Below, in pieces: positions 38,801 to 63,976 of a stretch of DNA of 64,000 nt. The DNA is from Lichenifustis flavocetrariae (GTDB taxonomy: Bacteria; Pseudomonadota; Alphaproteobacteria; Rhizobiales; Beijerinckiaceae). Made by a program: the position numbers and the translations under genes. The stretch is from NCBI RefSeq assembly GCF_026130545.1, contig NZ_JAMOIM010000007.1, positions 62,001 through 126,000 of the forward strand, written 5' to 3'. The notes beneath the pieces are model-generated. The model searched no databases. It saw nothing but the letters and a program-made list of their open reading frames with translations, and was not told the DNA's origin. Position 1 is the stretch's first letter. The number at the start of each line of letters is the position of its first letter.

Positions 38801-40030
38801 CTATTTCAGCAGGTCGTTGACGCTCATCAGCGCCGTCATGACCGAAATGATGAGCCAGGCGATAAGCATGCTGACGAGCATCATGGTGGCGGGCCCTATC
38901 ACGGCGATCAGCCGGGAATAGGCTGTGTCGAGCCTGGCTTCGTAGAAGACCGACACGCGGCTCGCGCTATCGGCGAGTCGCCCGCTCTCTTCCCCGACCC
39001 GCAGCATCTGGGTGACGTGCTTCGGAAGGAACGGATGACTCTCGAGCGCCTCGCTCAGCCGGCGGCCTTTCCGCACGTCCGCGATGACGCCATCGATCGC
39101 CCGCGCGGCTGCCGGCACCCGGATGATCGTGCGTAGCAGCCGCAGCGCGCTGGAGATGTCGACATCGTTGGCGAGCAGAACCGACAGGGTGCGGCAAAAT
39201 TTGAGGGTCGTGTCGTGAGTGAGAACGGTCTTGACGACCGGCAGACGCCCGGCAAGCCCCACCCAGAGGCAACGGCCCTCGGCGAGTTTACTCACCAGAA
39301 ATAAGCCGACAACCGCCGCGCCGAGCGTCATACCGATCGTGTGCAGATGGCTGCGCAGGAAAGCCGAGGCGTTGAAGACCATCAGAGCTGTTGGGTCGAC
39401 CTTGTCGCGGAAGCCTTCCAGCGCGTTCTCGAATTGCGGGATGATGTAGAGGAAGATGAAGACGGTGGCGCTGAGGGCCGACACGATCAGGAAAGCCGGA
39501 TAGGAGATCGCGCCGATCAGCCGCTTGCGTAGACGCTCGACGCGCTGCCGCTCTTCGGCGAGGCTCGTCAGCGCGTCTTCGAGCCGCCCCGTCGCTTCGG
39601 CCACCTCGACCATCTTGAGATACATGGGCGGGAACAGGCGGGGATGTTCGGCGAGTGCCCGAGAGAACGGCTTGCCGACCGAGAGGGCGAGCCGCAGGTC
39701 GTCGAGCACGTGGGTGCGCCAGCGGCTGCCTCCCATCTGGGTCAACAGCGTCAAGGCCTCGCTCAGCGTCACGCCTCCCTTCAGCAGCATGACGATGTCG
39801 AGCGTCATGGCCGTGATGTCTTCGGCTTTGGGTTCCGGCGTGAGGATCTGACGCCAGGTCCGTGTCTTGCGCGGCTTGGCTTCGACGGCCCGGATCGGCA
39901 GGAGCCCCGCGCGGTCGAGTTCGCTCAACACGGCCGCGTGCGTGTCGCCGTCCATCGTGCCCGTCAGGCGACGCCCGGCGCCATCGAGGGCCTCGTAGTT
40001 GAAGCTCGGCACCGCCCTACCCCGGCCCAT
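38801..40030 (-). CDS. gspF: Type II secretion inner-membrane platform protein GspF
   Basis: A 409-residue polytopic protein with two GspF domains. Each repeat has the pattern seen in MTLDIVMLLKGGVTLSEALTLL and LKFCRTLSVLLANDVDISSALRLL; three membrane helices are visible. It normally couples the cytoplasmic ATPase to pseudopilus growth, yet no ATPase gene is present here. The ATG at 40030 overlaps gspO by 14 bases; a GTG at 40012 is an alternative. Confidence 0.93.
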   Translation of the reverse strand: MGRGRAVPSFNYEALDGAGRRLTGTMDGDTHAAVLSELDRAGLLPIRAVEAKPRKTRTWRQILTPEPKAEDITAMTLDIVMLLKGGVTLSEALTLLTQMGGSRWRTHVLDDLRLALSVGKPFSRALAEHPRLFPPMYLKMVEVAEATGRLEDALTSLAEERQRVERLRKRLIGAISYPAFLIVSALSATVFIFLYIIPQFENALEGFRDKVDPTALMVFNASAFLRSHLHTIGMTLGAAVVGLFLVSKLAEGRCLWVGLAGRLPVVKTVLTHDTTLKFCRTLSVLLANDVDISSALRLLRTIIRVPAAARAIDGVIADVRKGRRLSEALESHPFLPKHVTQMLRVGEESGRLADSASRVSVFYEARLDTAYSRLIAVIGPATMMLVSMLIAWLIISVMTALMSVNDLLK

Positions 40031-40589
40031 ACGGCAGGAGGCTGGACGCCTGCTGCCACGCCCAAACCAGCCCGAGCGCCGGCGCTAGCACTGCCCCGAA
40101 GGCTATTCGGTCGACCGGCTCGCAGCCTCGCTTAAGGCCCACGAACAGGAGCCCCGCCGCGCTCGCGCCAAAAAGCGCATCGGCGAAACCAAGCAGCCCC
40201 ACAAGCGCCCCACCCGCGAAGGCGAGTTTCACGTCACCGAGCCCGATCCCGTCAAAACCCTTGCGGCGGAAATAGAGCTCCCTGAACAACCATAGACAGA
40301 GACCCGGCAGCGCCGCATCGACGGCGACCGACAAGACAGTCTCGCCCAGAAGGCCCGTCTCGGCAGACGCCAAACGGCTCGTGACTGCGAGAGTCAGAAG
40401 GGAGGCGCTCGCCGCATCGGGGATCGTGAAACGTTCCACGTCGCGCCAGACGATCCAGGCCACGATCACCATGAGCGCGACCGCGATGGCGGACGGGGTG
40501 CCTGTGAGCCCGATCAACCCCGCCACGAAGACGGCCGCGAGGCCGCCACGCCAACGGGTCCGGAACGGCGATCCGACAAGAGCCGTCAT
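40017..40589 (-). CDS. gspO: Prepilin peptidase, A24 family (GspO-like, peptidase domain only)
   Basis: A 190-residue aspartic membrane protease that removes prepilin leaders. Two catalytic Asp motifs are present: WRDVERFTIPDAAS and GLGDVKLAFAGGALVG. The N-terminal methyltransferase domain with its zinc cysteines, found in full-length GspO/PilD, is missing, so it resembles the short CpaA/TadV form. It overlaps gspD by 4 bases. Confidence 0.85.
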   Translation of the reverse strand: MTALVGSPFRTRWRGGLAAVFVAGLIGLTGTPSAIAVALMVIVAWIVWRDVERFTIPDAASASLLTLAVTSRLASAETGLLGETVLSVAVDAALPGLCLWLFRELYFRRKGFDGIGLGDVKLAFAGGALVGLLGFADALFGASAAGLLFVGLKRGCEPVDRIAFGAVLAPALGLVWAWQQASSLLPYGPG

Positions 40590-49649: not shown

Positions 49650-49786
49650 CGATCGAGCCTCCGCACATCCTTGCCGAATCCGTGGTCCGTACTGGCTTTT
49701 CGGCCAAGACGATCGGGACCGCCGATGCGACCATGATGGTGAGACATGACATTCCCACACCCCCTTTGACGAGAAGCAAGGTGCCC

Positions 49787-50755
49787 ATGATCAACAATCC
49801 ATTCACCGGCACGATCCCGGCGCTGATGACTCCCTGCACGCCCGAGCGCAAGCCCGACTTCGACGCCCTCGTCCGCAAGGGCACCGAACTCGTCGGCCTC
49901 GGGATGTCGGCTGTCGTCTATTGTGGCTCGATGGGTGATTGGCCGCTGCTCGACGACGAGGAGCGCATGACGGGCGTGGAGAAGCTGGTCTCGGCCGGCG
50001 TGCCGGTCATCGTCGGCACGGGAGCTCAGAATACGCGCCGCGCGGCGGCGCTGGCGGCTCACGCCAAGCGCTGCGGCGCCGCGGGTCTGATGATCATCCC
50101 GCGGGTGTTGTCACGCGGCTCGTCGGCGGCGGCGCAGCGCGCCCATTTCGACGCCGTGCTCGAAGCGTCCGTCGACCTGCCGTCGGTCATCTACAACTCT
50201 CCCTACTACGGCTATGAGACGGGCGCGGAGCTGTTCTTCGACATCCGGTCGCGCCATCCTCACCTCGTGGGCTTCAAGGAATTCGGCGGGGCCGCCTCGC
50301 TCCGCTACGCGGCCGAATACATCACCGGCAAGGATCCGTCGCTGACCCTGATGGTCGGCGTCGACACCCAGGTGGTCAACGGCTTCGTCAATTGCGGCGC
50401 CACCGGCGCCATCACGGGCATCGGTAACGTGCTGCCCCGCGAGGTGCTGCATTTCGTCGACCTCTGCGCGCGGGCCTCCAAGGGCGATGTGGCGGCGCGG
50501 CGCCGGGCGGTCGAGCTGGAGCAGGCGCTCGGGACCCTGTCCTCCTTCGACGAGGGCACGGACCTCGTGCTCCACTACAAGTACCTGATGGTGCTGCGCG
50601 GCAACGCCGAATATACGCTGCACTTCAACGAAAGCGACGCACTCTCGACCGCCCAGGCGCAATACGCCAAGGCGCAACTCGAACTGTTCGAGACCTGGTA
50701 CGCCGAATGGTCGCAGGAAACCGCGGCACCCCGGGCGCTCGGCAAGGCGGCCTGA
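49787..50755 (+). CDS. lhpC: DapA-family lyase, probable 1-pyrroline-4-hydroxy-2-carboxylate deaminase
   Basis: A 322-residue class I aldolase-fold enzyme. TGTIPALMTPCTPERKPDFDALV opens the barrel; the Schiff-base Lys is in HLVGFKEFGG and the catalytic Tyr in VIYNSPYYGYE. Alone it could be any DHDPS-like lyase, but the operon (epimerase and D-amino-acid oxidase next) points to the hydroxyproline-pathway deaminase that makes 2-oxoglutarate semialdehyde. The ATG at 49787 (MINNPFTG) has AAGG upstream. It ends 6 bases before the epimerase. Confidence 0.83.
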   Translation: MINNPFTGTIPALMTPCTPERKPDFDALVRKGTELVGLGMSAVVYCGSMGDWPLLDDEERMTGVEKLVSAGVPVIVGTGAQNTRRAAALAAHAKRCGAAGLMIIPRVLSRGSSAAAQRAHFDAVLEASVDLPSVIYNSPYYGYETGAELFFDIRSRHPHLVGFKEFGGAASLRYAAEYITGKDPSLTLMVGVDTQVVNGFVNCGATGAITGIGNVLPREVLHFVDLCARASKGDVAARRRAVELEQALGTLSSFDEGTDLVLHYKYLMVLRGNAEYTLHFNESDALSTAQAQYAKAQLELFETWYAEWSQETAAPRALGKAA

Positions 50756-50761
50756 GGCTCC

Positions 50762-51697
50762 ATGCACATCATCGACTCCCATACCGAAGGCGAGCCGACC
50801 CGGCTCATCGTGGCGGGCGGCCCGGATCTCGGGTCGGGCCCGCTCTTCGAGCGGCGCCGGATCCTGGCCGAGCGGCACGACGGCTTGCGCACCTTTGCGC
50901 TCAACGAGCCGCGTGGCTTCGACGCGATGGTCGGTGCGCTGCTCTGCGCGCCTTCAGCACCCGATTGCGCGGCCGGGCTGATCTTCTTCAACAACGCCGG
51001 CTATCTCGGCATGTGCGGGCACGGCACGATCGGGGCCGCGGCCACGCTCGCCCATATGGGACGGCTCAGGCCGGGGACCCATCGGTTCGAGACCCCCGTC
51101 GGCATCGTGACCGTGGACCTGCTTGACCGCAACACAGTCACGGTCGCCAACGTGCCGAGCTTCCTCTATCGGGATCGTGTGAGCGTGGAGGTCGAGGGCT
51201 TCGGCGCCGTGACCGGCGACATCGCCTGGGGAGGAAATTGGTTCTTTCTCACGGAAGCCACCCCCTGTCCCATCGAAGCCGCCAACATTCCCGCGCTCAC
51301 GGAAGCGGCGCTCCGGATCAAGCAGGCGCTGGTTCGCGCGGGCATAACCGGCCGGGATGGCGGAGAGATCGACCATATCGAGCTTTTCGGCGCCTCGCCG
51401 ACAGGCGCGGATTCACGCAGTTTCGTGCTCTGCTCCGGGGGCGCCTACGACCGCTCGCCCTGTGGGACCGGAACCAGCGCCAAGCTCGCCTGCCTGGCCG
51501 CCCATGGCGCGCTCGCACCCGGCGCAACCTGGGTGCAGGAAAGTGTGATCGGCACGCGCTTTCTCGCTCGCTACGCTGCGGGTCCGGAGGGGACCGTGCT
51601 GCCCCAAGTCACCGGCCGCGCCTGGGTCACCATGGAGGCGACGCTTCACCGCGACCCGACCGATCCGTTCCCGCACGGCATCGGCGGCGCGCCATGA
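50762..51697 (+). CDS. lhpA: 4-hydroxyproline epimerase (proline racemase family)
   Basis: A 311-residue cofactor-independent epimerase that turns trans-4-hydroxy-L-proline into cis-4-hydroxy-D-proline. Both catalytic cysteines are present, in GYLGMCGHGTIG and DRSPCGTGTSAK; this separates it from trans-3-hydroxyproline dehydratases, which have Ser/Thr at one site. The N-terminus MHIIDSHTEGEPTRLIVAGGP is typical. Its TGA overlaps the next ATG. Confidence 0.93.
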   Translation: MHIIDSHTEGEPTRLIVAGGPDLGSGPLFERRRILAERHDGLRTFALNEPRGFDAMVGALLCAPSAPDCAAGLIFFNNAGYLGMCGHGTIGAAATLAHMGRLRPGTHRFETPVGIVTVDLLDRNTVTVANVPSFLYRDRVSVEVEGFGAVTGDIAWGGNWFFLTEATPCPIEAANIPALTEAALRIKQALVRAGITGRDGGEIDHIELFGASPTGADSRSFVLCSGGAYDRSPCGTGTSAKLACLAAHGALAPGATWVQESVIGTRFLARYAAGPEGTVLPQVTGRAWVTMEATLHRDPTDPFPHGIGGAP

Positions 51698-52914
51698 CGC
51701 TACCCTCGCCACGCGGCGCCCTCGTGATCGGCGGCGGCATCGTGGGCCTGAGCATTGGGCTCGCGTTGCAGGCGCGCGGGCTGGCGGTGACAATGGTCGA
51801 CGCGGCTGGTGAGCGGGCACCTGCATCGGCCGGCAACGCTGGCCAAATCGCGGTGGAGCAGCACGAGCCCCTCGCGTCACTGGCGATGATCCGCGCGCTA
51901 CCGCGTCGGCTGATGAGCATGGGGGGACCCGTGAGCTTTCCGCCGGGCGCGGTCGGCCAGTGGCTCCCGTTCGGCCTGCGCCTGATCCGCGCCGTGTCGC
52001 CGTCGCGTTTCGCGCAGGGCAAGCAGGCGCTCGGCGCCTTGCTGGTCGAGGCGCTGCCGGCTTGGCGCCGCCTCATGGGCGACATCGGCGCCTCCGATCT
52101 TCTCCGAAATCAGGGCAACATCGTCGCCTGGGAAAGCGTCGCTGGAGCCAGGCGTGCCCGCGCGGCGCTACAAGGCTACGCAAGCCCAGCCGCGCGCTGG
52201 CGCGACCTTACGGCCGCGGAGGCAGAAGCTTTGGGCGGCCAACTCCGGTCGGCCCCGGCCGATGCCGTCCGTTTCGAAGGGACCGCCAGCGTCGCCGATC
52301 CCGCCGCCGTACTTGATGCGTTGCGCGCGGCGTTCCTCGGACGCGGCGGGACGGTCGAGGTGCGAACCGCGACGCTCGCGGAGGCACGACGCTCGGGCGC
52401 GGATCTGGTCATCGTCGCGGCGGGCGTTCGCTCGGCCCGACTGATGCGCGAGATCGGCCATGAGGTGCCGCTCATCGCCGAACGCGGCTATCATATTCAG
52501 TCGGCGCAGAGCCGATGGCCCATGGACCTGACCTCGGTCTTGTTCGAGGAACGCGCCCTGGTGGCCACACGGTTCCGCTCGGGCCTGCGGGCGACGAGCT
52601 TCATCGAGTTCACCCACCCCGACGCCGAGCCGGACCCAAGGAAATGGGAGCGACTGAAAAACCACGCCCATGATCTCGGCCTGCCGTTCGACTCGCCGGT
52701 CGAGACTTGGTACGGCTCGCGCCCGACCCTGCCCGACTACCTGCCGGCGATCGGTCGCAGCAGCCGTGACCCGCGCGTGCTCTATGCGTTCGGTCACCAG
52801 CATCTCGGCCTCACGCTCGGCCCGATCACGGGAGATCTCGTCGCCTCGCTGGCCTTCGCCGAAGCGGGCAGCATGGAGCTTGGCCCATTCGCCGTGGAAC
52901 GGTTCGGCCGGTGA
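51694..52914 (+). CDS. FAD-dependent D-amino acid oxidoreductase, probable D-hydroxyproline dehydrogenase
   Basis: A 406-residue DAO-family flavoprotein with the dinucleotide-binding motif ALVIGGGIVGLSIGLALQARG at the N-terminus and GPITGDLVASL near the C-terminus (FGHQHLGLTLGPITG, FAD-binding). In context it oxidises cis-4-hydroxy-D-proline to 1-pyrroline-4-hydroxy-2-carboxylate. It is a single-chain type, not the three-subunit form. ATG 51694 overlaps the epimerase stop (ATGA). Confidence 0.85.
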   Translation: MTLPSPRGALVIGGGIVGLSIGLALQARGLAVTMVDAAGERAPASAGNAGQIAVEQHEPLASLAMIRALPRRLMSMGGPVSFPPGAVGQWLPFGLRLIRAVSPSRFAQGKQALGALLVEALPAWRRLMGDIGASDLLRNQGNIVAWESVAGARRARAALQGYASPAARWRDLTAAEAEALGGQLRSAPADAVRFEGTASVADPAAVLDALRAAFLGRGGTVEVRTATLAEARRSGADLVIVAAGVRSARLMREIGHEVPLIAERGYHIQSAQSRWPMDLTSVLFEERALVATRFRSGLRATSFIEFTHPDAEPDPRKWERLKNHAHDLGLPFDSPVETWYGSRPTLPDYLPAIGRSSRDPRVLYAFGHQHLGLTLGPITGDLVASLAFAEAGSMELGPFAVERFGR

Positions 52915-53074: not shown

Positions 53075-54067
53075 TCAGGGCGTGGCGGGCGACGGGAGGT
53101 TCTTTGGCACCGCCCGCGAGCGCTTCACCCCGGCGAGACCCAGCACCGCGATAACGACCACGCCTTGAACGATATCCTGCGTTCCGGGCGGCAAGCCCGC
53201 GATCTGCATGGTGGTCACGATCAGAACGAGGAGGATGCTGCCGAACAGCGTGCCGAGAGCCGTGGAGGCGCCGCCCATGATCAATGAGCCGCCGAGCACT
53301 ACAGCGCCGACGGATTGCAGCAGATAGGGCGTTCCCATGTCCGGAAAGGCGCCCCCCACATAGGCGCCCAGCGCCCAGCCATCCAAGGCCGCCAGCACGG
53401 CGCTGATCACGAAGGTACTCGCCACCACGCGTGTCACGTCGATGCCGGCAAGTGCTGCCGCGCGACGGTTCTGGCCGACGGCGGACAGGGTACGGCCGTA
53501 GACGAACCGGCCCAGGACAAGGGCCGCCGCCGCGACGGCAGCGATCGCCACAAGCGTCATGAACGGGATTCCGCCGAGGCGCGCCGCCGCCACGTATTTG
53601 AGCGCCGGCGCCACGGCGGCCGAGACGAGCCAGCGATTGGCGAGGAGCGTCGCCGTCGCAAGAACGTAGCCACTCGCAAGCGTCGCGATGATGGCGGGAA
53701 TCCGGAACAAGCACACCAGAACCGCATTGGCCGAGCCGATCAGCAGACCAATACCGAGCACTGTCGCGAAGCCGAGCAGCAACCGACCATTCTGCCCCTC
53801 GACCACGATCAGGCTCGCATAGGCCGACAGGGTCAGGACGTTGGGAATGGACAGGTCGATATTGCCGCGCCCACCCGTGATCACGAACATCTGCCCGAGC
53901 GCCGCGATCGCCAGAAATGAGGCCGTCGCCAGCACGCCGGACAGGCTCTGCAGGCTGACCCGGCTGGTGATGGCGGACAGCACCACCCACAGGAGTACGA
54001 CACCGAGGAAAGACGGAATCCAGCGTGCTCGTCCCAGCAGTTTGAGCAGGTTTCCGACGGAATTCAT
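53075..54067 (-). CDS. Ribose-type ABC transporter permease (RbsC-like)
   Basis: A 330-residue permease of the carbohydrate CUT2 family, the last gene of the importer operon. About ten helices are visible; FVITGGRGNIDLSIPNVLTLSAY matches the RbsC motif with Asp in the ISVGS region, and GGIPFMTLVAIAAVAAAALVLGRFVYGRTLSAVGQNRRAAALAGIDV is the cytosolic coupling region. It overlaps the fused ATPase-permease gene by 4 bases. The substrate is inferred to be D-apionate or D-apiose from the divergent catabolic genes. Confidence 0.88.
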   Translation of the reverse strand: MNSVGNLLKLLGRARWIPSFLGVVLLWVVLSAITSRVSLQSLSGVLATASFLAIAALGQMFVITGGRGNIDLSIPNVLTLSAYASLIVVEGQNGRLLLGFATVLGIGLLIGSANAVLVCLFRIPAIIATLASGYVLATATLLANRWLVSAAVAPALKYVAAARLGGIPFMTLVAIAAVAAAALVLGRFVYGRTLSAVGQNRRAAALAGIDVTRVVASTFVISAVLAALDGWALGAYVGGAFPDMGTPYLLQSVGAVVLGGSLIMGGASTALGTLFGSILLVLIVTTMQIAGLPPGTQDIVQGVVVIAVLGLAGVKRSRAVPKNLPSPATP

Positions 54068-56547
54068 TGGTCGGCCGTGCGCGTGGAAAGTCCCGAACGG
54101 AGGATGAGGACAAGCAACAGCAGGAGACCCTGCACCGCCGCATTATAGTCGGTGCTGACGCCCACCGTCGCAAGCACTGCCCCGATGAGTGACAGCGTCA
54201 GCGCCCCCGCCACGACGCCACCGGAGGCGACACGGCCGCCGATGAGGCTGCACCCGCCCATCACCACCGAGGCGATGCTAAGCAGGGTGAACGGACCACC
54301 CGCGTTGATGTCGCTCGCAGTGTTGATCGCCGTCAACGACAATCCTGCGATTGTGCCGAAGAGAGCCACAATCAGGTAGCGCACGATGGCATAGCGGGTT
54401 GGCGACCAGCCACCTCGGTTGAGCGCCGCCGCATTGTTTCCGAAGCCGCGCAGCACGACCCCAAGCGGCGAGCGGTCGAGCGCGAAGGCGACAAGGCCTG
54501 CCAGGAGGATCAGGACAGCCATGGTGGGTATGCCCGGAATCGACCAACCGAACAGGGCCGTCAGCCAGTCGGGACTGCTGCCGCCAGGGGTCGGTTGCAA
54601 TGTGTAGCCCACACCGGACCAAATGAAGGACGCGCCCAACGTCACGACGATGGCCGGGATCTTGCGCCACTGGATGAGCAGGCCGAGCCCCGCATAGGCC
54701 ATGAACGCGAGGGCGATGCCGGCAAGCCCGACGAGCGGACGCTCCACCAGCAGCGTGGCGCTCAGCACGTTGACGAAGCCGGCGAAAGCGCCGATGCCGA
54801 GGTCGATCTCGCTGCCGCTCACCGCGAACATCTGAGCGAGCGCGACCAGCACCAGAGCTACCGCCGGGCCGAGCAGCAGGTCGAGGCCGAATGGGGATGC
54901 CGCCGTCGGATTGACGAAGCTCAGCACGGCTAAAACCACGACCAGGCTAATGAAGGGTGCCGTCGCCAAAGCCGTCTCGGCCCAGCGGCGCCGAGTTGGG
55001 GTCGTGGCAGCCGCCGACGGCATTCCGTTTGTCGCGGTCGTCATCTCTGCAAAGGAGGCATCGACGATCGCCTGCTCGGACAGGTCGGCCCGGAACAATT
55101 CACGGATGATCCGGCCACGGCTGAAGACGAGAACGCGGTCGCATTCCAGGAACTCGGCGTCCTCTGTGGAGTGCCACATCATCAGACGGCCCACGCCCGC
55201 GGACCGGGCGAGCGCGGTGTAGAAATCCGCCTTGGCACCGACGTCGACCCCTCGCGTCGGATCGTCGAGTAGGATCGTTGCCGCGTCGGTGATCAGCGCG
55301 CGCCCGACCAGCGCCTTCTGCTGGTTGCCGCCGCTGAGGTCCAGGATGCCTGAGGCCAGGCGTTCGGCATCGAGCCTGAGCCGATGGGCGGCATCGCGCG
55401 TGGCGCCTTCATCCGAAGCGTCACGAAAGGGCCGAAGCGCGAAGCGCTGCGCCACCCGGGCGATGTCCATGTTGGCGAGCACGCTCCAGAAGGCAAAAAT
55501 GCCCTCGCGTTGCCGATCGCCCGACACGAAGCTCGCATTGCCGATGAGCCGAACACCCGCGTCTTTGCGACGGGCGGCCGCGAAAATGCGGTGGAGGAAC
55601 GCCTTCTGACCGCTCCCCTCGAGGCCGGCCAGACCCACGATCTCGCCCGTGAAGAATTCGAGGTTGCGCCCGAGTGGCGCCACGATGTCGCCGCTGACGC
55701 GCAGCACCATTGTTTTTCGGCTCGCCACGCGGGCGTGCTGGCTCCGGAGCACATTTTCGGCCGGACCACCCATGGCTTCGACGAGGGCGGCCGCTGAGAT
55801 GTCGGTGCTGCCCGACCACACGACGGCGCCATTGCGCAGCACCACGATGCCGGTCGAGATGTCCATGATCTCGTTAAGCTTGTGACTGATGAAGATGAAG
55901 GCCAGGCCCGCAGCCGCACGTTCCTTGATGAAGGTGCGAAGTTGACGGCTGCGCTCGATGTCGAGAGACGAGGTCGGCTCGTCGAGAACGAGCAGCATGA
56001 GTCCGGGAGCGCCTGCAGCCCGCGCGATCTCCACCATCTGCCTTTGGCCGAGCGGCAGGTCGTCGATCCGGCGGTCGACATCGATGCCGTTGCCGGGGAA
56101 CACGGCGTCGAGCGCCGCACGGGCCCGAGCCCGGTAGACGCGGCGCCAACCCGGGCGCGGGCGTGCGGCCTCCGGGGTTTCGAGAAAGAAGTTTTCGGCG
56201 ACCGTGAGGTTGCCGCAGAGCGAGAGTTCCTGATGGACGATGCGGATACCGCGTCGCTGGGCCTCACCCGCATCGTAGATGCGAAGGTCGACGGGCCGGC
56301 CGTCGATGGCGATCGATCCCGCATCGGGCGCTTCGACGCCGGACAGGGAGCGCATCAACGTGCTCTTTCCGGCGCCGTTACCCCCGACAAGGCCGACCAC
56401 GGCCCCGCGCGGCACAAGAAGATCGATGGCTCGATTGGCGAGCGTCGGGCCGTACGCCTTGGTGATGCCGCGCATCTCCACCATGCATGCCGCTGAAGAC
56501 ACCATAGCTTCGGAGCGCGGCCTGACGGAAACAGCGTTGGTCGCCAT
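54064..56547 (-). CDS. Fused ribose-type ABC ATPase and permease (RbsA-RbsC fusion)
   Basis: A single 827-residue protein with two parts. Residues about 1-500 are a CUT2 double ATPase: Walker A GLVGGNGAGKST, signature LPLGQRQMVEIARA, Walker B MLLVLDEPTSSLD, then a second half with the degenerate Walker A GLEGSGQ, signature LSGGNQQKALVGRA and ILLDDPTRGVDVGAK. In that last motif the usual catalytic Glu is Asp. Residues about 515-827 are an RbsC-type permease (FAVSGSEIDLGIGAFAGFVNVLSATLL, WSPTRYAIVRYLIVALFG). TTG 56550 and ATG 56547 both follow GAGGGAG. Confidence 0.9.
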   Translation of the reverse strand: MATNAVSVRPRSEAMVSSAACMVEMRGITKAYGPTLANRAIDLLVPRGAVVGLVGGNGAGKSTLMRSLSGVEAPDAGSIAIDGRPVDLRIYDAGEAQRRGIRIVHQELSLCGNLTVAENFFLETPEAARPRPGWRRVYRARARAALDAVFPGNGIDVDRRIDDLPLGQRQMVEIARAAGAPGLMLLVLDEPTSSLDIERSRQLRTFIKERAAAGLAFIFISHKLNEIMDISTGIVVLRNGAVVWSGSTDISAAALVEAMGGPAENVLRSQHARVASRKTMVLRVSGDIVAPLGRNLEFFTGEIVGLAGLEGSGQKAFLHRIFAAARRKDAGVRLIGNASFVSGDRQREGIFAFWSVLANMDIARVAQRFALRPFRDASDEGATRDAAHRLRLDAERLASGILDLSGGNQQKALVGRALITDAATILLDDPTRGVDVGAKADFYTALARSAGVGRLMMWHSTEDAEFLECDRVLVFSRGRIIRELFRADLSEQAIVDASFAEMTTATNGMPSAAATTPTRRRWAETALATAPFISLVVVLAVLSFVNPTAASPFGLDLLLGPAVALVLVALAQMFAVSGSEIDLGIGAFAGFVNVLSATLLVERPLVGLAGIALAFMAYAGLGLLIQWRKIPAIVVTLGASFIWSGVGYTLQPTPGGSSPDWLTALFGWSIPGIPTMAVLILLAGLVAFALDRSPLGVVLRGFGNNAAALNRGGWSPTRYAIVRYLIVALFGTIAGLSLTAINTASDINAGGPFTLLSIASVVMGGCSLIGGRVASGGVVAGALTLSLIGAVLATVGVSTDYNAAVQGLLLLLVLILRSGLSTRTADQ

Positions 56548-56613
56548 CAACTCCCTCGGCGCTGGAAAAGGGCGGATACCGTGCCGTCCTTGAGGACGGC
56601 AAAGCCGGAGAGG

Positions 56614-57636
56614 TTACTTCTGTGCGAGCAGGTTCTGCTTCACCCAATCTTCCGAATAGGATGGGCTGACAATCGTGTTGGGCGCGAGGTCCGCATAGTC
56701 CTTGAGGTTCGCCTGATCGACGGTCGCAACCGGCATGATCAGTGTCTTCGGAAGCGTCGCACCCTTCACGTAGGCAAGCGAGAGCCAGAACGCGGCGCCG
56801 CCGATGCCTGGCGTCGTATTCATGGAAATCGTGCTGTAATTGTGCGACTTGCTCTTGTCAGACCACCATTTGATGAAGTTCGAACTACCGCCACCCTCGA
56901 TCACTGGCGGGTGGTTCGCATAGGCGTCTCCAGCTTGGTCGAAGGCTTGCGCGACGCCAAAATCGTCGCCGCCCTGCCCGAGAACCGCGTCAACATGCGC
57001 GAGGCTCGGCAGAACATTGGCGACGGCCGCCTGAGCCACGGAGGCCGTACATTGCCCATAGACCGTGGCCACCACCTTGACGTTCGGATGCTCCTTCAGC
57101 ACGGCTTCCTGAGCGCTGTACATATCGGCGTCGGGGGCAGATCCCTTCACGCCGCGCACGAGGAGCAGGTTTCCCTTGTCGCCGATCATCTTGATGACGG
57201 CTTCGGCCTGCTGCTTCTTGTAGCCCTTGAAGTCGAAGTTCAGCTGCACGTTGCAGGGCGCTGAGGCGATGGAATCGAAGGAAATCACCTTGATGCCAGC
57301 CTTGCAGGCCTTCTCGATGATGCCGTTCTCGGCTGTCTCGGAGGCTGCGTCGATCGCAATGGCATCGACCTTCTTCAAGATCAGCTCGGCCATCTGGCTG
57401 TTCTGCTGATTGACGCTGCCGTCGCCGTTCAGCACGACGTAGTCGGCGATCTTGCCGTCGGCCTTGGCCTGCTTGGCAGCAGCCTCGAAGGCCTCAACCA
57501 TCTGGTGGCGCCAGATGTTGCCATAGAAGGCGTTCGACAGGGCGATGACGGGCTTGTCGGGCGAGGCCGCCGCCGGGTGCTGGCTTGCCGCCGCCAAACA
57601 GCTGGTCGCTGCAACGATAAGGGTCAGTTTGGTCAT
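56614..57636 (-). CDS. Sugar ABC transporter substrate-binding protein (RbsB-like)
   Basis: A 340-residue periplasmic type I binding protein, first gene of the importer operon. A signal peptide (LTLIVAATSCLAAASQHPAAA) is followed by PDKPVIALSNAFYGNIWRHQMVEAFEAAAKQAKADG, the CUT2 opening, and hinge elements such as IDAASETAENGIIEKACKAGIKVISFD. Two internal Cys (CNVQLNF, YGQC) could form a disulfide. GGAGGAG lies just upstream of the ATG. Divergent from the apionate genes. Confidence 0.9.
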   Translation of the reverse strand: MTKLTLIVAATSCLAAASQHPAAASPDKPVIALSNAFYGNIWRHQMVEAFEAAAKQAKADGKIADYVVLNGDGSVNQQNSQMAELILKKVDAIAIDAASETAENGIIEKACKAGIKVISFDSIASAPCNVQLNFDFKGYKKQQAEAVIKMIGDKGNLLLVRGVKGSAPDADMYSAQEAVLKEHPNVKVVATVYGQCTASVAQAAVANVLPSLAHVDAVLGQGGDDFGVAQAFDQAGDAYANHPPVIEGGGSSNFIKWWSDKSKSHNYSTISMNTTPGIGGAAFWLSLAYVKGATLPKTLIMPVATVDQANLKDYADLAPNTIVSPSYSEDWVKQNLLAQK

Positions 57637-57694
57637 GTTTGCTCCTCCGGGCGATCGGCCTTTTGGCAGGTCTTTTTATTTGTGTAGCCACTAC

Positions 57695-57711
57695 CTCATC
57701 ATACCAGATGG
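57695..57711. promoter_or_regulatory. Putative operator, copy 1 (CTCATCATACCAGATGG)
   Basis: First of two near-identical 17-base elements in the divergent promoter region; contains CATC-N6-GATG symmetry. Likely site for one of the FadR-type regulators encoded downstream (inference). Confidence 0.55.
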
Positions 57712-57774
57712 GACAAGGCCCACTTGAGCACTTCGTGACGTAGCTAACGGTAAGGTCTCGAAAAAATCGATAGA

Positions 57775-57791
57775 CTCATCATACCAGTTGG
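57775..57791. promoter_or_regulatory. Putative operator, copy 2 (CTCATCATACCAGTTGG)
   Basis: Differs from copy 1 at one base, starts exactly 80 bases later in the same orientation, and lies 40 bases before the oxidoisomerase start. Confidence 0.55.
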
Positions 57792-57831
57792 ATTATTTCA
57801 GGCAAAATCACATTGATCGGGGGAGGGTTGC

Positions 57832-58659
57832 TTGACCACCATTGCTTTGTTCGGGGCTGGCGGGAAGATGGGCTACCGCCTCGCCAGCAACCTCAAAGGC
57901 TCGCGCTTCGACGTGCGCCATGTCGAAGTCAGCGAGGCGGGCCGGAAACGCCTCAAGGACGACCTCGGCATCGACACGGTGGAGCAGACGCAAGCGCTCA
58001 AAGGTGCCGAGGTTGTGATCCTGGCGGTGCCGGACACGATCATCGGCAAGGTCGCGGCTGCGATCGGCCCACTGCTCGAAGCCGGCACCATGGTGGTGGC
58101 GCTCGACGCCGCGGCGCCCTTCGCGGGTCATCTGCCGGAGCGCCCCGACCTCACCTATTTCGTGACGCATCCCTGCCACCCGCCGATCTTCAACGACGAG
58201 GTCGAGATGCATGCCAAGACCGATTATTTCGGCGGCGTGGCGGCCAAGCAGCACATCGTCAGCTCGCTGATGCAGGGTCCCGAAAGCGCTTATGCGCTCG
58301 GCGAGGAAATCGCCAAGGTGATCTGGGCGCCAGTGATGCGTTCGCACCGCGTCACGGTCGAGCAGATGGCGCTGCTGGAGCCGGGTTTGTCCGAAACCGT
58401 CTGCGCCACGCTGCTGGTCGTCATGAAGGAAGCCATGGACGATGTGATCGCCCGCGGCGTGCCGCGCGAAGCCGCACGCGACTTCCTGCTCGGGCACATG
58501 AACGTGCTCGCCTCTGTCATCTTCGAGGAGCGCCCGGGCCTCTTTTCGGACGCCTGTAACAAGGCGATCGAATTCGGCAAGCCGGCCTTGATGCGCGACG
58601 ACTGGCGTCGGGTGTTCGAGCCTGACGAACTCGCGGCCAGCATACAGCGCATCACCTGA
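57832..58659 (+). CDS. apnO: Probable D-apionate oxidoisomerase (phosphogluconate dehydrogenase-like)
   Basis: A 275-residue NAD(P)-dependent enzyme. The Rossmann motif is IALFGAGGKMGYRLASNL; the helical C-terminal domain (VTVEQMALLEPGLSETVCATLLVVMKEAMDDVIARGVPREAARDFLLGHMNVLASVIF) is the phosphogluconate-dehydrogenase type seen in apionate oxidoisomerases. In the published D-apionate pathway this enzyme oxidises and rearranges D-apionate to 3-oxo-isoapionate. The start is TTG at 57832 after GGGAGGG. It is first in the operon with the RuBisCO-like and kinase genes, which is the main support for the specific function. Confidence 0.75.
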   Translation: MTTIALFGAGGKMGYRLASNLKGSRFDVRHVEVSEAGRKRLKDDLGIDTVEQTQALKGAEVVILAVPDTIIGKVAAAIGPLLEAGTMVVALDAAAPFAGHLPERPDLTYFVTHPCHPPIFNDEVEMHAKTDYFGGVAAKQHIVSSLMQGPESAYALGEEIAKVIWAPVMRSHRVTVEQMALLEPGLSETVCATLLVVMKEAMDDVIARGVPREAARDFLLGHMNVLASVIFEERPGLFSDACNKAIEFGKPALMRDDWRRVFEPDELAASIQRIT

Positions 58660-58681
58660 CGCACGGTTTGGGAGCACGGGC

Positions 58682-59974
58682 GTGGCCGAGGCTGAGAGCC
58701 GCCTGCCGGACGATGTGATCCGGCTGACCTATCACATCGAGACGGCGGGAGACCCAGAGCGGCTCGCGGCCAAGATCGCCAGCGACCAATCGACCGGCAC
58801 GTTCGTGGCGCTGCCGGGCGAGACCCCGGAGCTGAAGGCGCGGGTGGCGGCCCGGGTCGTCGGCTATCGCGAATTGCCGCCTGTGGGCGAGGCCGCCTGG
58901 CCTGACGGACGGGCCGCGGGCGCAACCTATCGCGCGGCGGAAGCCGACATCGATTTTCCGCTTGAAGCCATAGGCACCGATCTTGCGGCCCTGATGACCA
59001 TCGCGGTCGGGGGCGCCTCGGCCATCAAGGGCTTCTCGGGCTTCAGGGTGACGGGCCTGCGCCTGCCGCCCGCCTTTGCGGGCGCCTATCCTGGCCCGCA
59101 GTTTGGCGTCGCCGGGACCCGGAGACTCACGGGCGTTCACGGCCGGCCGGTGATCGGCTCCATCGTCAAGCCGGCGCTCGGTCTCCGCCCGCACGAGACG
59201 GCCGCTCTGGTACGTGAACTCGTCGAAGCGGACGTCGACTTCATCAAGGACGACGAGAAGCTGATGAGCCCGCGCTATTCGCCGCTCGCCGATCGTGTGG
59301 CGGCCATCATGCCGATTGTCCGCGATCACGAGCAGAAGACCGGCAAGAAAGTCATGTACGCCTTCAACATCTCGTCGGACGATCCCGACGAGATGGTCCG
59401 CAACCACGACATCGTCGCGGACGCCGGCGGCAACGCGGCCGTGATCTGCATCAATGCGGTCGGTTTCGGAGGCCTGAAATTCCTGCGCAAACGCGCCCGG
59501 CTCGCGCTTCACGCGCATCGGGCCGGCTGGGATGCCATGACGCGTCACCCGAGCCTCGGCCTCGACTTCTCGGTGTACCAGCAGTTCTGGCGCCTGCTCG
59601 GCATCGACCAGTTCCAGATCAACGGCATCCGCGTGAAATACTGGGAGCCGGACGACAGCTTCGTGCGCTCCTTCCAGGCCGTGACGACACCGCTGTTCTC
59701 CCCCGCCGATTGCCCCATGCCGGTGGTGGGCTCGGGCCAATGGGGCGGCCAGGCCCCGGACACCTATGCCCAAACGGGCCGCACCACCGACCTGCTCTAT
59801 CTGTGCGGCGGTGGCGTCGTCAGCCATCCGGGCGGCCCGGCCGCCGGCGTCAAGGCGGTGCGGCAGGCCTGGGACGCAACGGTCGCCGGCGTCCCGCTGG
59901 AGGCCTACGCGCGGGAGCACGAGGAACTGGCCCAGTCGCTGCAGACGTTCGGCGCCTCGGACGCGGCCGCCTGA
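58682..59974 (+). CDS. RuBisCO-like protein, probable 3-oxo-isoapionate-4-phosphate decarboxylase or transcarboxylase/hydrolase
   Basis: A 430-residue form IV RuBisCO homologue. Retained equivalents of RuBisCO residues: Lys163 (SIVKPALGL, as K175), the carbamylation site Lys189 with Asp191 and Glu192 (DFIKDDEKL, as K201-D203-E204), His277, His279 and Arg280 (LHAHRAG, as H292-H294-R295), and SGQWGGQAP and LCGGGVVSHPGG phosphate-site loops. Changed: the second Lys of KPKxGL is Ala, and the H327 position appears to be Asn (FQINGIRVKYWE). It therefore should enolise a carbamate-metal bound substrate but not fix CO2. Adjacent genes suggest OiaX- or OiaT-like activity. GTG start at 58682. Confidence 0.85.
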   Translation: MAEAESRLPDDVIRLTYHIETAGDPERLAAKIASDQSTGTFVALPGETPELKARVAARVVGYRELPPVGEAAWPDGRAAGATYRAAEADIDFPLEAIGTDLAALMTIAVGGASAIKGFSGFRVTGLRLPPAFAGAYPGPQFGVAGTRRLTGVHGRPVIGSIVKPALGLRPHETAALVRELVEADVDFIKDDEKLMSPRYSPLADRVAAIMPIVRDHEQKTGKKVMYAFNISSDDPDEMVRNHDIVADAGGNAAVICINAVGFGGLKFLRKRARLALHAHRAGWDAMTRHPSLGLDFSVYQQFWRLLGIDQFQINGIRVKYWEPDDSFVRSFQAVTTPLFSPADCPMPVVGSGQWGGQAPDTYAQTGRTTDLLYLCGGGVVSHPGGPAAGVKAVRQAWDATVAGVPLEAYAREHEELAQSLQTFGASDAAA

Positions 59975-61302
59975 TGTCCTCTCTCCTGCTCTCCTATTAC
60001 GGCGACGACCTCACCGGCTCGACCGACGTGATGGAAGCGCTGGCGTCGCACGGCGTGCCGACGGTGCTTTTCACAGATGTCCCCACGGCAGCGCAGCGCA
60101 GCCGGTTTCCCGAAGCGCGCGCCATCGGCATCGCTGGAACGAGCCGCAGCGAGACGCCGGCTTGGATGGACGCCCATCTGGCCCCGGCCTTCGCGGCGCT
60201 GCGCGGCCTCGGGGCGTCCGTCACCCACTACAAGGTCTGCTCGACCTTCGATTCGGCGCCGCAGGTCGGCAACATCGGCCGGGCCGCCGAACTCGGCGCG
60301 GCGGCCTTCGGCCAGGATGTGGTGCCGCTCGTCGTGGGGGCGCCGCAGCTCAAGCGCTACACCGCCTTCGGCAATCTCTTCGCTGCGTTTCGGGGCGAGA
60401 CGTATCGGATCGACCGTCATCCGGTGATGAGCCGCCATCCCGTGACGCCGATGCGGGAAGCCGACCTGCGCCTTCATCTGGCGGCCCAGACCGCGCGCCC
60501 GGTGACGCTGGCGGATCTTGTGGCTCTCGCCGGCCCCGATCCATCGGCAACGGTGGACCGCCTTCTCGCCACGCCCGACAGCCTTCTGCTGATCGACGTC
60601 GCCGATGCCGCCACCCAAGCCGAAGCCGGACGGCAGCTGTGGCGGCTCGCTCAAGCGGGCCGGCGCTTCACGGTGGGTTCCTCCGGAATCGAATACGCGC
60701 TTCTGGCCGAATGGGCGCGGCAAGGCCTTTTGCCCGGCACGGCCTCCTTCCCGGCCGTGGCTCCGGTCGAACGCCTCGCGGTCGTGTCCGGCAGTTGCTC
60801 GCCGACCACGGAGGCGCAGATCCGGACCGCGCTCAGCGACGGCTTCGAAGGCTTGGCGCTCGACCCACGCGATCTCATCGGCCCGAACCGAGAGGAAACC
60901 GTCGCGCGAGCGGTCGCCGACGGCACCGCGCGATTGCGCCAGGGGAAAAGCGTGCTGGCCTATACGGCACTCGGTCCCGCCACCGACCTCGGCGCCGCCA
61001 TGGAGGGCGCGCGCCACCTCGTCGGCCGCGGCCTCGGCCGCATCCTGGCCGGCCTTGTGGCAGCTGAGCGGCTGACCCGGGCCGTGGTGGCCGGCGGCGA
61101 CACATCGAGCCATGCATTGCGCGAAATCGAAACCATGGCGCTCACGACCCGCATGCCACTTGCGGCGTCACCCGGCTCGCCACTTTGCACCGCGCATAGC
61201 GAGAGCGCCATCTTCAGCGGCTTGGAGATCGCCTTCAAGGGCGGTCAGGTCGGCGACGACCACTATTTCTCCAGGATCCGCGACGGCTTTCCGGGGATCT
61301 GA
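59974..61302 (+). CDS. oiaK: DUF1537 four-carbon acid sugar kinase, probable 3-oxo-isoapionate kinase
   Basis: A 442-residue kinase. The substrate-binding N-terminal domain starts LLSYYGDDLTGSTDVMEALAS, followed by HYKVCSTFDSAPQVGNIGRA; the nucleotide-binding C-terminal domain has VVSGSCSPTTEAQI and VVAGGDTSSHALREI, both family signatures. The family phosphorylates threonate-like acids; with an apionate oxidoisomerase and a RuBisCO-like protein in the same operon the 3-oxo-isoapionate kinase role is favoured. Its ATG overlaps the preceding stop (TGATG); the longer open frame upstream lies in the RuBisCO-like gene. Confidence 0.82.
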   Translation: MSSLLLSYYGDDLTGSTDVMEALASHGVPTVLFTDVPTAAQRSRFPEARAIGIAGTSRSETPAWMDAHLAPAFAALRGLGASVTHYKVCSTFDSAPQVGNIGRAAELGAAAFGQDVVPLVVGAPQLKRYTAFGNLFAAFRGETYRIDRHPVMSRHPVTPMREADLRLHLAAQTARPVTLADLVALAGPDPSATVDRLLATPDSLLLIDVADAATQAEAGRQLWRLAQAGRRFTVGSSGIEYALLAEWARQGLLPGTASFPAVAPVERLAVVSGSCSPTTEAQIRTALSDGFEGLALDPRDLIGPNREETVARAVADGTARLRQGKSVLAYTALGPATDLGAAMEGARHLVGRGLGRILAGLVAAERLTRAVVAGGDTSSHALREIETMALTTRMPLAASPGSPLCTAHSESAIFSGLEIAFKGGQVGDDHYFSRIRDGFPGI

Positions 61303-61315
61303 GCAACACCCGCCA

Positions 61316-62158
61316 TCAAGACGCCGGATCTGGCGGGAGCGGCGCATTGGGGCGCGCAGTCCGGCGCGATGCCCGACCCCGCTTCGGTGTCGCCGGGGCT
61401 TCCGCCTCGATCCGGTGCGCGTAGAGCGCCGCCGAACGCGTGAGGTGAAGCACGATGGCGGCTTCGGCGCGGTCCGGGTCGCGGGCTGTGATGCGGTCGA
61501 GGATTTCCTCGTGCTCGGCCAGCGTCAAATTCTCCTTGCCGGTCCAGATCAGCATGTCGGTATGATATCGCTTGAGCCAGCCCAGCATGGCCTCGCTCAC
61601 CGCGGCGAAGATCGGGTTCCCCGAAATGCCTGCGATGACGGCGTGGAACTCCATGTCGGCCGCGATGAACCGATCGGCGTCGCCGAGAGACGCGCGTTGC
61701 ACGAGAATGAGATCCTTGAGCCGCCCGACATCGAAGGCCGTCGCCTTGAGGGCGGCATCGCGGACCATCCCGCGTTCGAAGAAGAGCCGGGCCTCCTTCA
61801 GGTGGCCGAGCGAGTCGGGCGACGTCGCCAGCATGATCTGCGCCGCCATGTCGACCTGCTGGGTCACGGCGCGCGCCGTCAGGGTTGTGACCCGGGCCCG
61901 TTCACCATGCGAAATCGTCAGGAGCCCCAGATTGCTCAGCGCCTGCATGGCCTCGCGGATCGCCGGCCGGCCCACGCCGAACCGCTCCATCAGCTGCCGC
62001 TCCGACGGCATGAGACCGCCCGGACCAACGTCGCCGCTGGTGATCATATGCTTCAGCCGATCGAAGACCTCATCGGACAATTTGCGGCGGGTGATGGGTT
62101 CGATGGCGGGAAGCACGCGGGGCCAAACCTCAGCCTGGATCGGAGATGATACCAGCAT
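61316..62158 (-). CDS. GntR/FadR-family transcriptional regulator
   Basis: A regulator of about 280 residues with an N-terminal winged helix (LSDEVFDRLKHMITSGDVGPGGLMPSERQLMERFGVGRPAIREAMQAL) and an all-helical FCD effector domain with metal-type His residues (MEFHAVIAGISGNPIF, LAEHEEILDRI), as in NanR/FadR-like proteins. It is convergent with the kinase gene, 13 bases away. ATG 62158 (MLVSSPI) or ATG 62167 may be the start. A palindrome containing ATACCAG, shared with the putative operators at 57695 and 57775, overlaps the start, suggesting autoregulation and control of the apionate genes. Confidence 0.88.
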   Translation of the reverse strand: MLVSSPIQAEVWPRVLPAIEPITRRKLSDEVFDRLKHMITSGDVGPGGLMPSERQLMERFGVGRPAIREAMQALSNLGLLTISHGERARVTTLTARAVTQQVDMAAQIMLATSPDSLGHLKEARLFFERGMVRDAALKATAFDVGRLKDLILVQRASLGDADRFIAADMEFHAVIAGISGNPIFAAVSEAMLGWLKRYHTDMLIWTGKENLTLAEHEEILDRITARDPDRAEAAIVLHLTRSAALYAHRIEAEAPATPKRGRASRRTARPNAPLPPDPAS

Positions 62159-62161
62159 CTC
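62143..62161. promoter_or_regulatory. Palindrome at the start of the first GntR gene
   Basis: GAGATGATACCAGCATCTC has perfect 6-bp arms (GAGATG/CATCTC). Its core ATACCAG also occurs in both repeats at 57695 and 57775. Candidate autoregulatory operator. Confidence 0.5.
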
Positions 62162-62262
62162 TCCCATACTCCCCCAAACGTGGTCTCGCGAAGCGATTTC
62201 ATCTTGGCGACCGACCTGCCCGGTGCTTCACGCTTCAAACCGACGCTCTCCGTCGTGGCGGG

Positions 62263-62958
62263 TCAGAGCTCGATGCCATAACGTCGCGCGGCCGCCCGGA
62301 TGTGGTTTCGCATGGAGGTTTCTGCGCCCAAGCTGTCCCGTGCGGCGATGCGGTCGCACACCTCTTCATGCTCGCGCAATGTGTCGCCCAAGCGGATGCG
62401 GAGCGTCATGGGCAGTCTCTGTGTCTCCACCATCATGTCACGCACTGGTCGATACATGCCGGCCAGGACGGGATTTGCCGCCAGGTCGAAGATACTATCG
62501 TGGAAGACGGCATCCGCAGCCGCCATGGCCGGGATGTCATCCGCCGCGAGCGCATTGCGCATGGCCTCTGTCGCGGCTTTAAGTCGTGCGGCTCCGGGCT
62601 CGTCACAACGCAGGGCGGCAAGGCGGGCCGCGTGGCTCTCGAGCCCCTCGCGCGCCTCGTAGACATCTCGTGGCGAGCAGCGTTCTGAGAACCGCCACAA
62701 AGGGGCGCGGTCCGTGACCTGGTTGACGTAGACGCCGCTGCCGATACGAACTTTGACCAGTCCCATCACTTCGAGAACGGAGATCGCCTCGCGGAGTGAC
62801 GGCCGACTCACACCGAGTTTTTCGGCGAGGTCGCGCTGGGAGGGCAGCTTGTCCCCGGGTCTCAGTCCGCCCCTCAGGATCAGGGCTTGCAGATGGTCGG
62901 ACACAGCGCGTGAGACGAGTGGCCGCTCGCCCTGAAACGGCTCAACCACGGGATCCAT
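62263..62958 (-). CDS. GntR/FadR-family transcriptional regulator
   Basis: A 231-residue second regulator: winged helix (SDHLQALILRGGLRPGDKLPSQRDLAEKLGVSRPSLREAISVLEVMGL) plus FCD domain (ADAVFHDSIFDLAANPVL, LREHEEVCDRIAARD). The ATG at 62958 has AAAGGG six bases upstream; the earlier ATG at 62991 has no ribosome site. Its promoter region is shared with the divergent amino-acid binding protein gene, where a FadR-type operator is visible, so it may regulate that transporter rather than the apionate genes. Confidence 0.88.
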   Translation of the reverse strand: MDPVVEPFQGERPLVSRAVSDHLQALILRGGLRPGDKLPSQRDLAEKLGVSRPSLREAISVLEVMGLVKVRIGSGVYVNQVTDRAPLWRFSERCSPRDVYEAREGLESHAARLAALRCDEPGAARLKAATEAMRNALAADDIPAMAAADAVFHDSIFDLAANPVLAGMYRPVRDMMVETQRLPMTLRIRLGDTLREHEEVCDRIAARDSLGAETSMRNHIRAAARRYGIEL

Positions 62959-63109
62959 CTTGAACCCTTTTGGGGGCAAATCGAAGGTCATTTGGGGAAG
63001 TTGCTTGGATGTTGAGCGTTGTGCACGCTTTTTCCGCCTCGCATCACAGTTGCGGTCAAGATCGCACCCGTTGCGCGCTTGCGCGATTCAGATCGATCCG
63101 TCACCTTAG

Positions 63110-63163: not shown

Positions 63164-63976
63164 ATGTTCCGAGTGAATGTTTCAGAATGGTTGCGGCGGC
63201 GAGTTGTCGGAGTCGCCGCGCTGTCGCTCGGCCTTGGCGTTTCGGTCACTGCCCATGCGGCGGACATGAAGGTCGGGGCCAATATCGGAAACGTGCCGTG
63301 GGAGTTCCAGGACGCCAAGGGTGAAACGGTCGGTTTTGAGGTCGACCTCGTCAAGGAGATCGGCAAGCGTCTCGGAATGGACGTGACCTTCGTCAACATT
63401 CCCTTCACGGGCCTGTTCGCCGCCGTGCAGTCCGGCCAGATCGACGCTGCGGTATCGTCCATCACCATCACCAAGAAGCGGCTCGAGAGCGTCGCCTTCG
63501 CCCAGCCCTATTATGACAGCGACCAGTCGCTGACCGTGAAAGCCGACTCGGGGATCACGAGCCTCAAGGGCATGAGCGGCAAGGTCGCAGGCGTCGACAC
63601 CGGATCGACCGGTGACATGTGGGCCACCAAGCACATGGACGAGACGAAGATCAGCGACATCCGCAAATACGAGGGGCTTTCGCCCGCGATGCTCGACCTC
63701 GCGGCCGGCCGCATCGACGGCTACATCAGCGACATCCCGGCGCTGCAATATTACGTCAAGGACAAGCCGACCTACAAAGTGGTCGAGCGCATTCCAACAG
63801 GCGAGCAATATTCGATCATGATGGCGAAGGGCAGCCCGCTGCTGCCGAAGGTCAATGACGAGATCACCAAGCTCAAGGACGAAGGCTTCATCGCCAAGCT
63901 CCACGAGAAGTGGTTCGGCGCCAAGCCGGAAGCCACGACCTCGACGGTGATGAAGGCGGAGATGCCGAAGCTCTGA
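63164..63976 (+). CDS. Polar amino-acid ABC transporter substrate-binding protein
   Basis: A 270-residue periplasmic binding protein (SBP_bac_3 type). Signal peptide: VVGVAALSLGLGVSVTAHA. Typical motifs are GANIGNVPWEFQDAKGETVGFEVDLVKEIGKRLGM, NIPFTGLFAAVQSGQIDAAVSSITITKKRLESVAFAQPYY, and SGKVAGVDTGSTGDMW. AGGAG precedes the ATG. Permease and ATPase genes probably follow beyond the window edge. Confidence 0.92.
   Translation: MFRVNVSEWLRRRVVGVAALSLGLGVSVTAHAADMKVGANIGNVPWEFQDAKGETVGFEVDLVKEIGKRLGMDVTFVNIPFTGLFAAVQSGQIDAAVSSITITKKRLESVAFAQPYYDSDQSLTVKADSGITSLKGMSGKVAGVDTGSTGDMWATKHMDETKISDIRKYEGLSPAMLDLAAGRIDGYISDIPALQYYVKDKPTYKVVERIPTGEQYSIMMAKGSPLLPKVNDEITKLKDEGFIAKLHEKWFGAKPEATTSTVMKAEMPKL

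Follow-up and report, generated by a model that had tools for sequence, protein, structure and literature searches.

A candidate D-apionate uptake and catabolic locus with a fused ABC importer in Lichenifustis flavocetrariae

A locus in the genome of Lichenifustis flavocetrariae is, on balance, probably a module for the uptake and catabolism of D-apionate, with D-apionate (or its lactone) as the cargo of the importer. The enzyme part taken alone, consisting of ApnO, OiaK and OiaX, can be assigned by orthology to D-apionate breakdown with high confidence. Apiose, a branched sugar, occurs in plant cell walls and in many plant glycosides; D-apionate is its oxidised form. The DNA analysed (the window) is 64,000 nucleotides long and corresponds to positions 62001-126000 of contig C158 in a genome of 7.52 Mb (180 contigs, completeness 99.72%, contamination 3.04). 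It is proposed that a binding protein and a fused ABC importer would bring in D-apionate or its lactone, which would open to D-apionate; ApnO would convert D-apionate to 3-oxo-isoapionate, OiaK would phosphorylate this and OiaX would decarboxylate the 3-oxo-isoapionate-4-phosphate to L-erythrulose-1-phosphate and CO2. Isomerases of the LerI and DerI types, with genes at another place in the genome, would then take L-erythrulose-1-phosphate to erythrose-4-phosphate. The reaction steps are taken from a D-apiose/D-apionate pathway with an OiaX decarboxylase, reportedly described by Carter et al. in 2018 (Nat Chem Biol); for the window they are predicted by orthology. The cargo of the importer is likewise a prediction; what was observed are the genes, their families and orthology, the genome content and the conservation of linkage and motif.

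The features of the locus are listed in the table. The original prediction had described a tight operon of a phosphogluconate-dehydrogenase-like gene, a gene for a RuBisCO-like protein (RLP) and a DUF1537 kinase gene, and the three were found as intact ORFs in that arrangement, with 22 bases separating the end of the ApnO-like gene (58659) from the RLP start (58682) and a TGATG at 59972-59976 common to the RLP stop and the kinase start. Equally borne out were a divergent ribose-type importer, whose permease, fused subunit and binding protein are supported by Pfam and point away from the operon, and the FadR-type regulators that follow, both of which carry FCD and GntR domains. The fused subunit has 828 aa when counted from the first TTG, and translation may in fact begin some codons further in. 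All genes of the locus are intact ORFs with a coding-like third-position composition. Elsewhere in the window there is a 4-hydroxyproline breakdown operon (49682-52914) encoding a DHDPS-family protein, a D-amino-acid dehydrogenase-like protein and a 4-hydroxyproline epimerase (NF052296 487 bits, cut-off 450), as well as genes coding for secretin and GspF components of a type II secretion-like system (38801-42877). A molybdenum hydroxylase set at 11039-14827, with a MoCoBD large subunit, an FAD subunit and a 165-aa ORF at the usual place of the iron-sulphur subunit, could oxidise an aldehyde.

Table. Genes and operator-like sites of the candidate D-apionate locus (positions in the window)
Feature	Position	Strand	Support
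CUT2-like ABC permease, second transmembrane subunit of importer	53075-54067	-	PF02653 102 bits
Fused importer subunit, ATPase-ATPase-permease, single polypeptide	54064-56550	-	PF00005 two stretches; PF02653 residues 560-815
Periplasmic sugar-type binding protein (wSBP) of importer	56614-57636	-	PF13407 (Peripla_BP_4) 157 bits
Operator-like site 1, CTACCTCATCATACCAGATG	57691-57710	+	PWM 15.2
Operator-like site 2, TAGACTCATCATACCAGTTG	57771-57790	+	PWM 27.8, top score in 64-kb window
ApnO-like (D-apionate oxidoisomerase-like), TTG start	57832-58659	+	PGDH_C PF16896 239 bits; PDB 5t57 435 bits
RLP, predicted OiaX (3-oxo-isoapionate-4-phosphate decarboxylase), GTG start	58682-59974	+	RuBisCO_large 257 bits; NF042437 754 bits
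Predicted 3-oxo-isoapionate kinase OiaK, DUF1537 family	59974-61302	+	SBD_N PF07005 176, NBD_C PF17042 103 bits
NanR-type GntR/FCD regulator	61316-62167	-	NF003011 329 bits, cut-off 260
Second GntR/FCD regulator	62263-62991	-	PF07729/PF00392

The identity of the RLP had been left between OiaX and OiaT, and both the NCBIfam score and phylogeny decided for OiaX. It scored 754.1 bits with the OiaX equivalog NF042437 (cut-off 700) and 221 with form III RuBisCO. A tree was built from 131 sequences, reduced to 121 when repeats were dropped, with the window's own copies removed and one in three of the OiaX-like rows kept (30 of 90); a gene of G005 was entered twice. Among its 61 rows the RLP fell in a 31-row clade with OiaX-position proteins (support 100/99), separate from the RuBisCO-type rows and from another RLP type, represented by Paraburkholderia sprentiae among others, that is presumed to be OiaT; the tree software gave a long-branch warning and the placement is to the clade, not to a position inside it. 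OiaT is thus ruled out, and by orthology the RLP is OiaX, with a predicted decarboxylase function. The same genome also encodes a RuBisCO large subunit (C114:323618-324541; NF003252 798 bits, cut-off 438) that lay among the RuBisCO-type rows of the tree, so a true RuBisCO and a RuBisCO-like enzyme coexist in the genome.

The kinase lies directly after OiaX on the same strand, the place expected of OiaK, and shares 61% identity with the OiaX-adjacent kinase of Rhizobium K102 and 60% with that of Shinella. It scored 480 bits with the OiaK equivalog NF042436, short of the cut-off (700). The OiaX-adjacent kinases of Rhizobium K102 (466) and Shinella (442) fall short as well and that of Paraburkholderia (822) passes, so that the miss seems to reflect the model rather than the locus. 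Scores with the models for 3-oxo-tetronate kinase (169 bits) and D-threonate kinase (38 bits) were far below the OiaK score and rule out these identities. The ApnO-like protein shares 79% identity with the ApnO-position protein of Rhizobium K102 and 81% with that of Shinella; no NCBIfam model for ApnO turned up in the family search and, judged from this identity, the PGDH_C protein is an orthologue of the ApnO-position protein of apiose loci. The assignment of the three genes to D-apionate breakdown has therefore withstood scrutiny, on the OiaX score and the orthology of the kinase and ApnO, and the RLP and kinase did not group with threonate or erythronate enzymes.

How typical this arrangement is could be judged from a reference set of named OiaX loci, limited to the 80 best among 516 confirmed ones and each taken with 10 kb on either side where the contig allowed. 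A kinase gene lay within 1.5 kb after the RLP gene on the same strand in 79/80. Across the set a NanR regulator (>50% identical) was found at 79 loci, the kinase at 79, ApsD at 73, ApnO at 68 and ApnL at 68, while an apiose-type binding protein and an apiose-type permease were each found at 65. The recurrence of kinase, NanR and ApnO at 79, 79 and 68 of these best 80 of 516 loci argues that the arrangement of the trio is not due to chance. The apiose-type permease was followed by ApsD within 150 bases in 58/65 loci; in the remaining seven the gap was 192-252 bases (four) or about 900 (two), or ApsD was on the other strand (one). In the Rhizobium K102 locus (L004, 18590-20430) the match to ApnL is split in two and the gene table, which is incomplete, has no entry at that place; the lactonase gene of that record may therefore be disrupted.

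The front end of the pathway looks different in the window genome. The original prediction had noted that dehydrogenase and lactonase genes are missing from the window, which is the case, and no orthologue was found in the rest of the genome either. ApnL had no match in the genome by protein search (6/9 genomes have one) or with NF049900, a model that in a survey of 16 genomes or records matched 15, 10 of them above the cut-off, with weak pieces only in G108. The best match to ApsD was a 47% paralogue, which falls outside ApsD and adjoins genes for PGK, GAPDH and a DeoR-type regulator; among the nine genomes, eight with some match, ApsD was 67-71% identical in G002-G005, G031 and G058, G002 being of the same genus group as the window genome, 47% in G050 and undetected in G001. 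A close apiose-type binding protein was likewise not found in the window genome, the best homologue of the Rhizobium K102 protein being 51% identical. The back end is retained: at C103 there is a DerI gene (NF051858 265 bits, cut-off 240) beside one for a LerI-like TIM protein, 51% identical to that of K102 and named by likeness and place, with no dedicated model. With ApsD and ApnL missing and the DerI and LerI-like genes kept, the genome looks complete for the steps between apionate and erythrose-4-phosphate and incomplete for the known conversion of apiose to apionate. The suggestion that apionate itself is imported is accordingly favoured by the want of any ApsD or ApnL orthologue genome-wide. 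Loss of ApnL alone is not diagnostic, since G004 of the same genus is without ApnL yet has ApsD and an apiose-type binding protein.

The importer was followed across genomes through its binding protein, for which the closest solved structure is 4pe6 (227 bits). Homologues with 61-76% identity were found in 25 other replicons, giving 26 copies with that of the window. Of the 25, 10 are genomes from a set of 34 genomes or records (binding protein >60% identical; G031 = G061), 12 are further genomes out of 397 of the order, and three are plasmids. A 49% match on a plasmid of Agrobacterium leguminum, among other genes, was left out of the set. The permease homologues at the other loci are 53-68% identical. 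A match in one frame ran across the ATPase-permease junction in 18/26 loci; seven of the other eight were covered only in part and that of R. jaguaris matched in two frames. A more distant importer also has a gene of fused size (2448 bases), so the fusion seems to be a property of the wider importer family. Many positions of the binding protein, e.g. K140 and K164, are fixed in the 26 copies and different in 16 paralogues; a binding-site reading of these positions, which would call for a ligand-bound structure, was set aside and is not counted as evidence.

Among the query proteins, the gene nearest to the importer was in 26/26 copies an apn/oia gene, a NanR regulator neighbouring such genes or a lactonase, and in 0/26 was it ApsD; genes outside the query set could lie between. 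ApnO was nearest in 13 copies (the window, Methylocapsa S129, eight Mesorhizobium, G162, G265 and G362), ApnL itself in one (G135), a divergent NanR-ApnL-ApsD-RLP-kinase-ApnO set in two (G262, G157) and OiaX, OiaK or NanR-OiaX in four (G005, G108, G144 and S. meliloti LMB1). An SMP-30/gluconolactonase gene adjoined the importer in the remaining 6/26 loci (L205, L206, L207, L208, L175, L174; found in G434, G363, G336, G340, R. jaguaris and P. sprentiae), followed by ApnL in three, and the cargo may for this reason be a lactone. The apn genes of R. jaguaris lie on the same plasmid as the importer, about 140 kb away. A search of 16 genomes or plasmids with the importer found ApnO in every one (55-100% identical); it was not found in G001, the sole importer-free genome in that search; the association is one-way, because ApnO is also common where there is no fused importer.

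A 20-base consensus, AATACTCATTATACCAGTTA, links the importer to the enzymes. The NanR-OiaX intergenic region was usable in 77/80 reference loci and in 73 of these it held a site with no more than six mismatches to the consensus; a matrix (PWM) was built from the 34 different sites. The two best sites of the window lie between the importer and apnO, one nearer each start, and site 1 repeats site 2 over 17 nt with one mismatch. In 20 base-shuffled windows the best scores had a mean of 8.9 and a maximum of 16.6, so the 27.8-bit site stands on its own score and the 15.2-bit site only by its place and the repeat. When two mismatches at most were allowed in the short pattern, 2 matches were found where 1.0 was expected, a count reached in 32/100 shuffles; both matches were exact. 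Genome-wide (7.5 Mb), exact CTCATNATACCAG occurs only twice, in sites 1 and 2.

Eleven one-mismatch sites were found elsewhere in the genome, as against 3 matches in total for a reversed control pattern, with PWM scores of 1.7 to 22.4. The best (22.4) is upstream of a KaiC gene. Of ten ORFs flanking six sites, Pfam left three unmatched and identified the others as KaiC, regulators of the MarR and AraC types, a luciferase-like protein, a chemotaxis receptor, an integrase and a phosphoesterase. For the other five sites the flanks are known as ORF positions or first residues; one of these five, at C106 (17.6), falls inside a predicted ORF. Further regulon members in the window genome were put aside.

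At the importer loci a motif scoring at least 14, a threshold set after the first scores were seen, was present upstream of the importer in 19/26 and in 0/16 control paralogues. Five of the seven loci below the threshold share the core TTATACCAG (L181, L202, L205-L207) and two (L174, L176) have nothing; the best control paralogue (L140, 10.9) scored above all seven. The copies are not independent, as 11/26 (eight Mesorhizobium, G162, G265, G362) share one layout. The importer appears to be switched on together with the enzymes. From family and position the NanR-type protein (61316-62167) is the probable regulator of the locus and putative binder of the motif, and would control importer and enzymes via the two sites in the divergent promoter region. 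The second regulator scored below the cut-off of every NCBIfam model among 25 of 28 families listed and was not a regular neighbour of OiaX in the surveyed loci, and its membership in the system is uncertain. It adjoins a gene for an amino-acid-type binding protein (SBP_bac_3, 63164-63976), which it may serve.

The claim that D-apionate is the cargo follows from the gene neighbours and the missing front end. Its main competitor, which is unlikely but deserves to be weighed, is that the importer carries D-apiose, with oxidation by an unrecognised dehydrogenase such as the 47% ApsD paralogue and opening of the lactone by an SMP-30-type enzyme or spontaneously. The apionate claim is weakened by G005, of the same genus, which pairs the fused importer with ApsD and ApnL and is without a close apiose-binding protein, a combination that would fit an apiose importer equally well. 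No close apiose-binding protein was found in G262, G157 and G135 either, with ApnL homologues at 373, 379 and 842 bits, and in the first two an ApsD homologue (46-50%) lies in the same gene set. The window genome itself keeps, besides the ApsD paralogue, SMP-30 homologues (best 63%) that could replace ApnL. SMP-30 was dropped as a specific marker of the pathway; it is not diagnostic, as it matches 22/23 genomes or records, importer-free ones included, with at least two copies in 18. Against D-apiose stand 12 genomes (eight Mesorhizobium, G162, G265, G362, Methylocapsa S129) that hold both importers in one locus, the apiose-type importer followed by ApsD and the fused importer next to ApnO. The place of the ApsD paralogue beside PGK and GAPDH genes also argues against it, as does the finding that an apiose-type gene was seen beside 0/11 one-mismatch sites, where the family search covered some of the flanking genes.

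That some other compound feeds the same enzymes, e.g. an apiose-containing glycoside or another branched or C4 aldonate, is improbable: the SMP-30 genes beside six of the importers leave room for another lactone, but the constant company of ApnO in the replicons searched speaks against it, and no glycosidase is named beside the importer in the one annotated apn/oia locus, other loci having been scanned with the query proteins only. The front-end genes not found would also suit a disused leftover of a once complete apiose pathway, a reading made very improbable by the intact genes with their coding-like composition, the two exact motif cores and the downstream isomerases that are kept.

The locus was compared with the closest known systems. 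The D-apiose/D-apionate pathway work of Carter et al. 2018 is cited in PMC6302742. That pathway shares with the window orthologues of ApnO, OiaK and OiaX and a NanR-type regulator, with LerI/DerI-type isomerases in the genome; the differences are that no ApsD or ApnL orthologue or close apiose-binding protein was found in the window genome and that the window has another, fused ABC importer divergent from the operon. An apiose cluster in Rhodobacteraceae strain LCG007, for which PMC11747546 reports growth on D-apiose, likewise has the oxidoisomerase, kinase and decarboxylase, but has a lactonase and a dehydrogenase too, neither of which was found in the window genome.

The apiose-type binding protein of Rhizobium K102 is near-identical to PDB 5ibq/4ry0. 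The ligand of 5ibq is reportedly D-apiose. Both this CUT2 importer and that of the window are ribose-type ABC importers whose loci have the same motif and regulator. The window binding protein scored only 27 bits against each of 5ibq and 4ry0 and is thus not close to that type; in the window importer the ATPase and one permease are fused and there is no DUF2291 gene beside it. The neighbours of the window-type importer are ApnO or lactonases and that of the 5ibq/4ry0 type is ApsD, in samples that differ, the apiose-importer loci having been chosen through OiaX and the fused-importer loci through the binding protein. The solved structure closest to the window binding protein, 4pe6, is titled 'Putative ABC transporter' and is named in PMC6429110; no ligand assignment for it was found. 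A literature search, from which subscription papers were mostly absent, found nothing to the point on an apionate importer or on fused CUT2 importers. The enzymes are already known; the assignment of the importer family, its tie through the motif and a genome retaining the apionate entry alone seem to be new.

More widely, there may be a second entry into apiose catabolism, in which a dedicated ABC importer of the ATPase-permease fusion type would take up D-apionate or apionolactone made outside the cell or in the periplasm and feed ApnO-OiaK-OiaX (or OiaT), skipping the cytoplasmic dehydrogenase, with the window genome using only that entry; we consider the case for this general reading evenly balanced. 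As to the natural source of apionate, one can only guess at an oxidation of apiose in the periplasm or outside the cell. If the importer does serve oxidised apiose, D-apionate would be a nutrient in itself for soil and plant-associated bacteria, and L. flavocetrariae would provide a naturally occurring genome in which the apionate branch stands apart from the apiose branch, together with a ready candidate for ligand screening.
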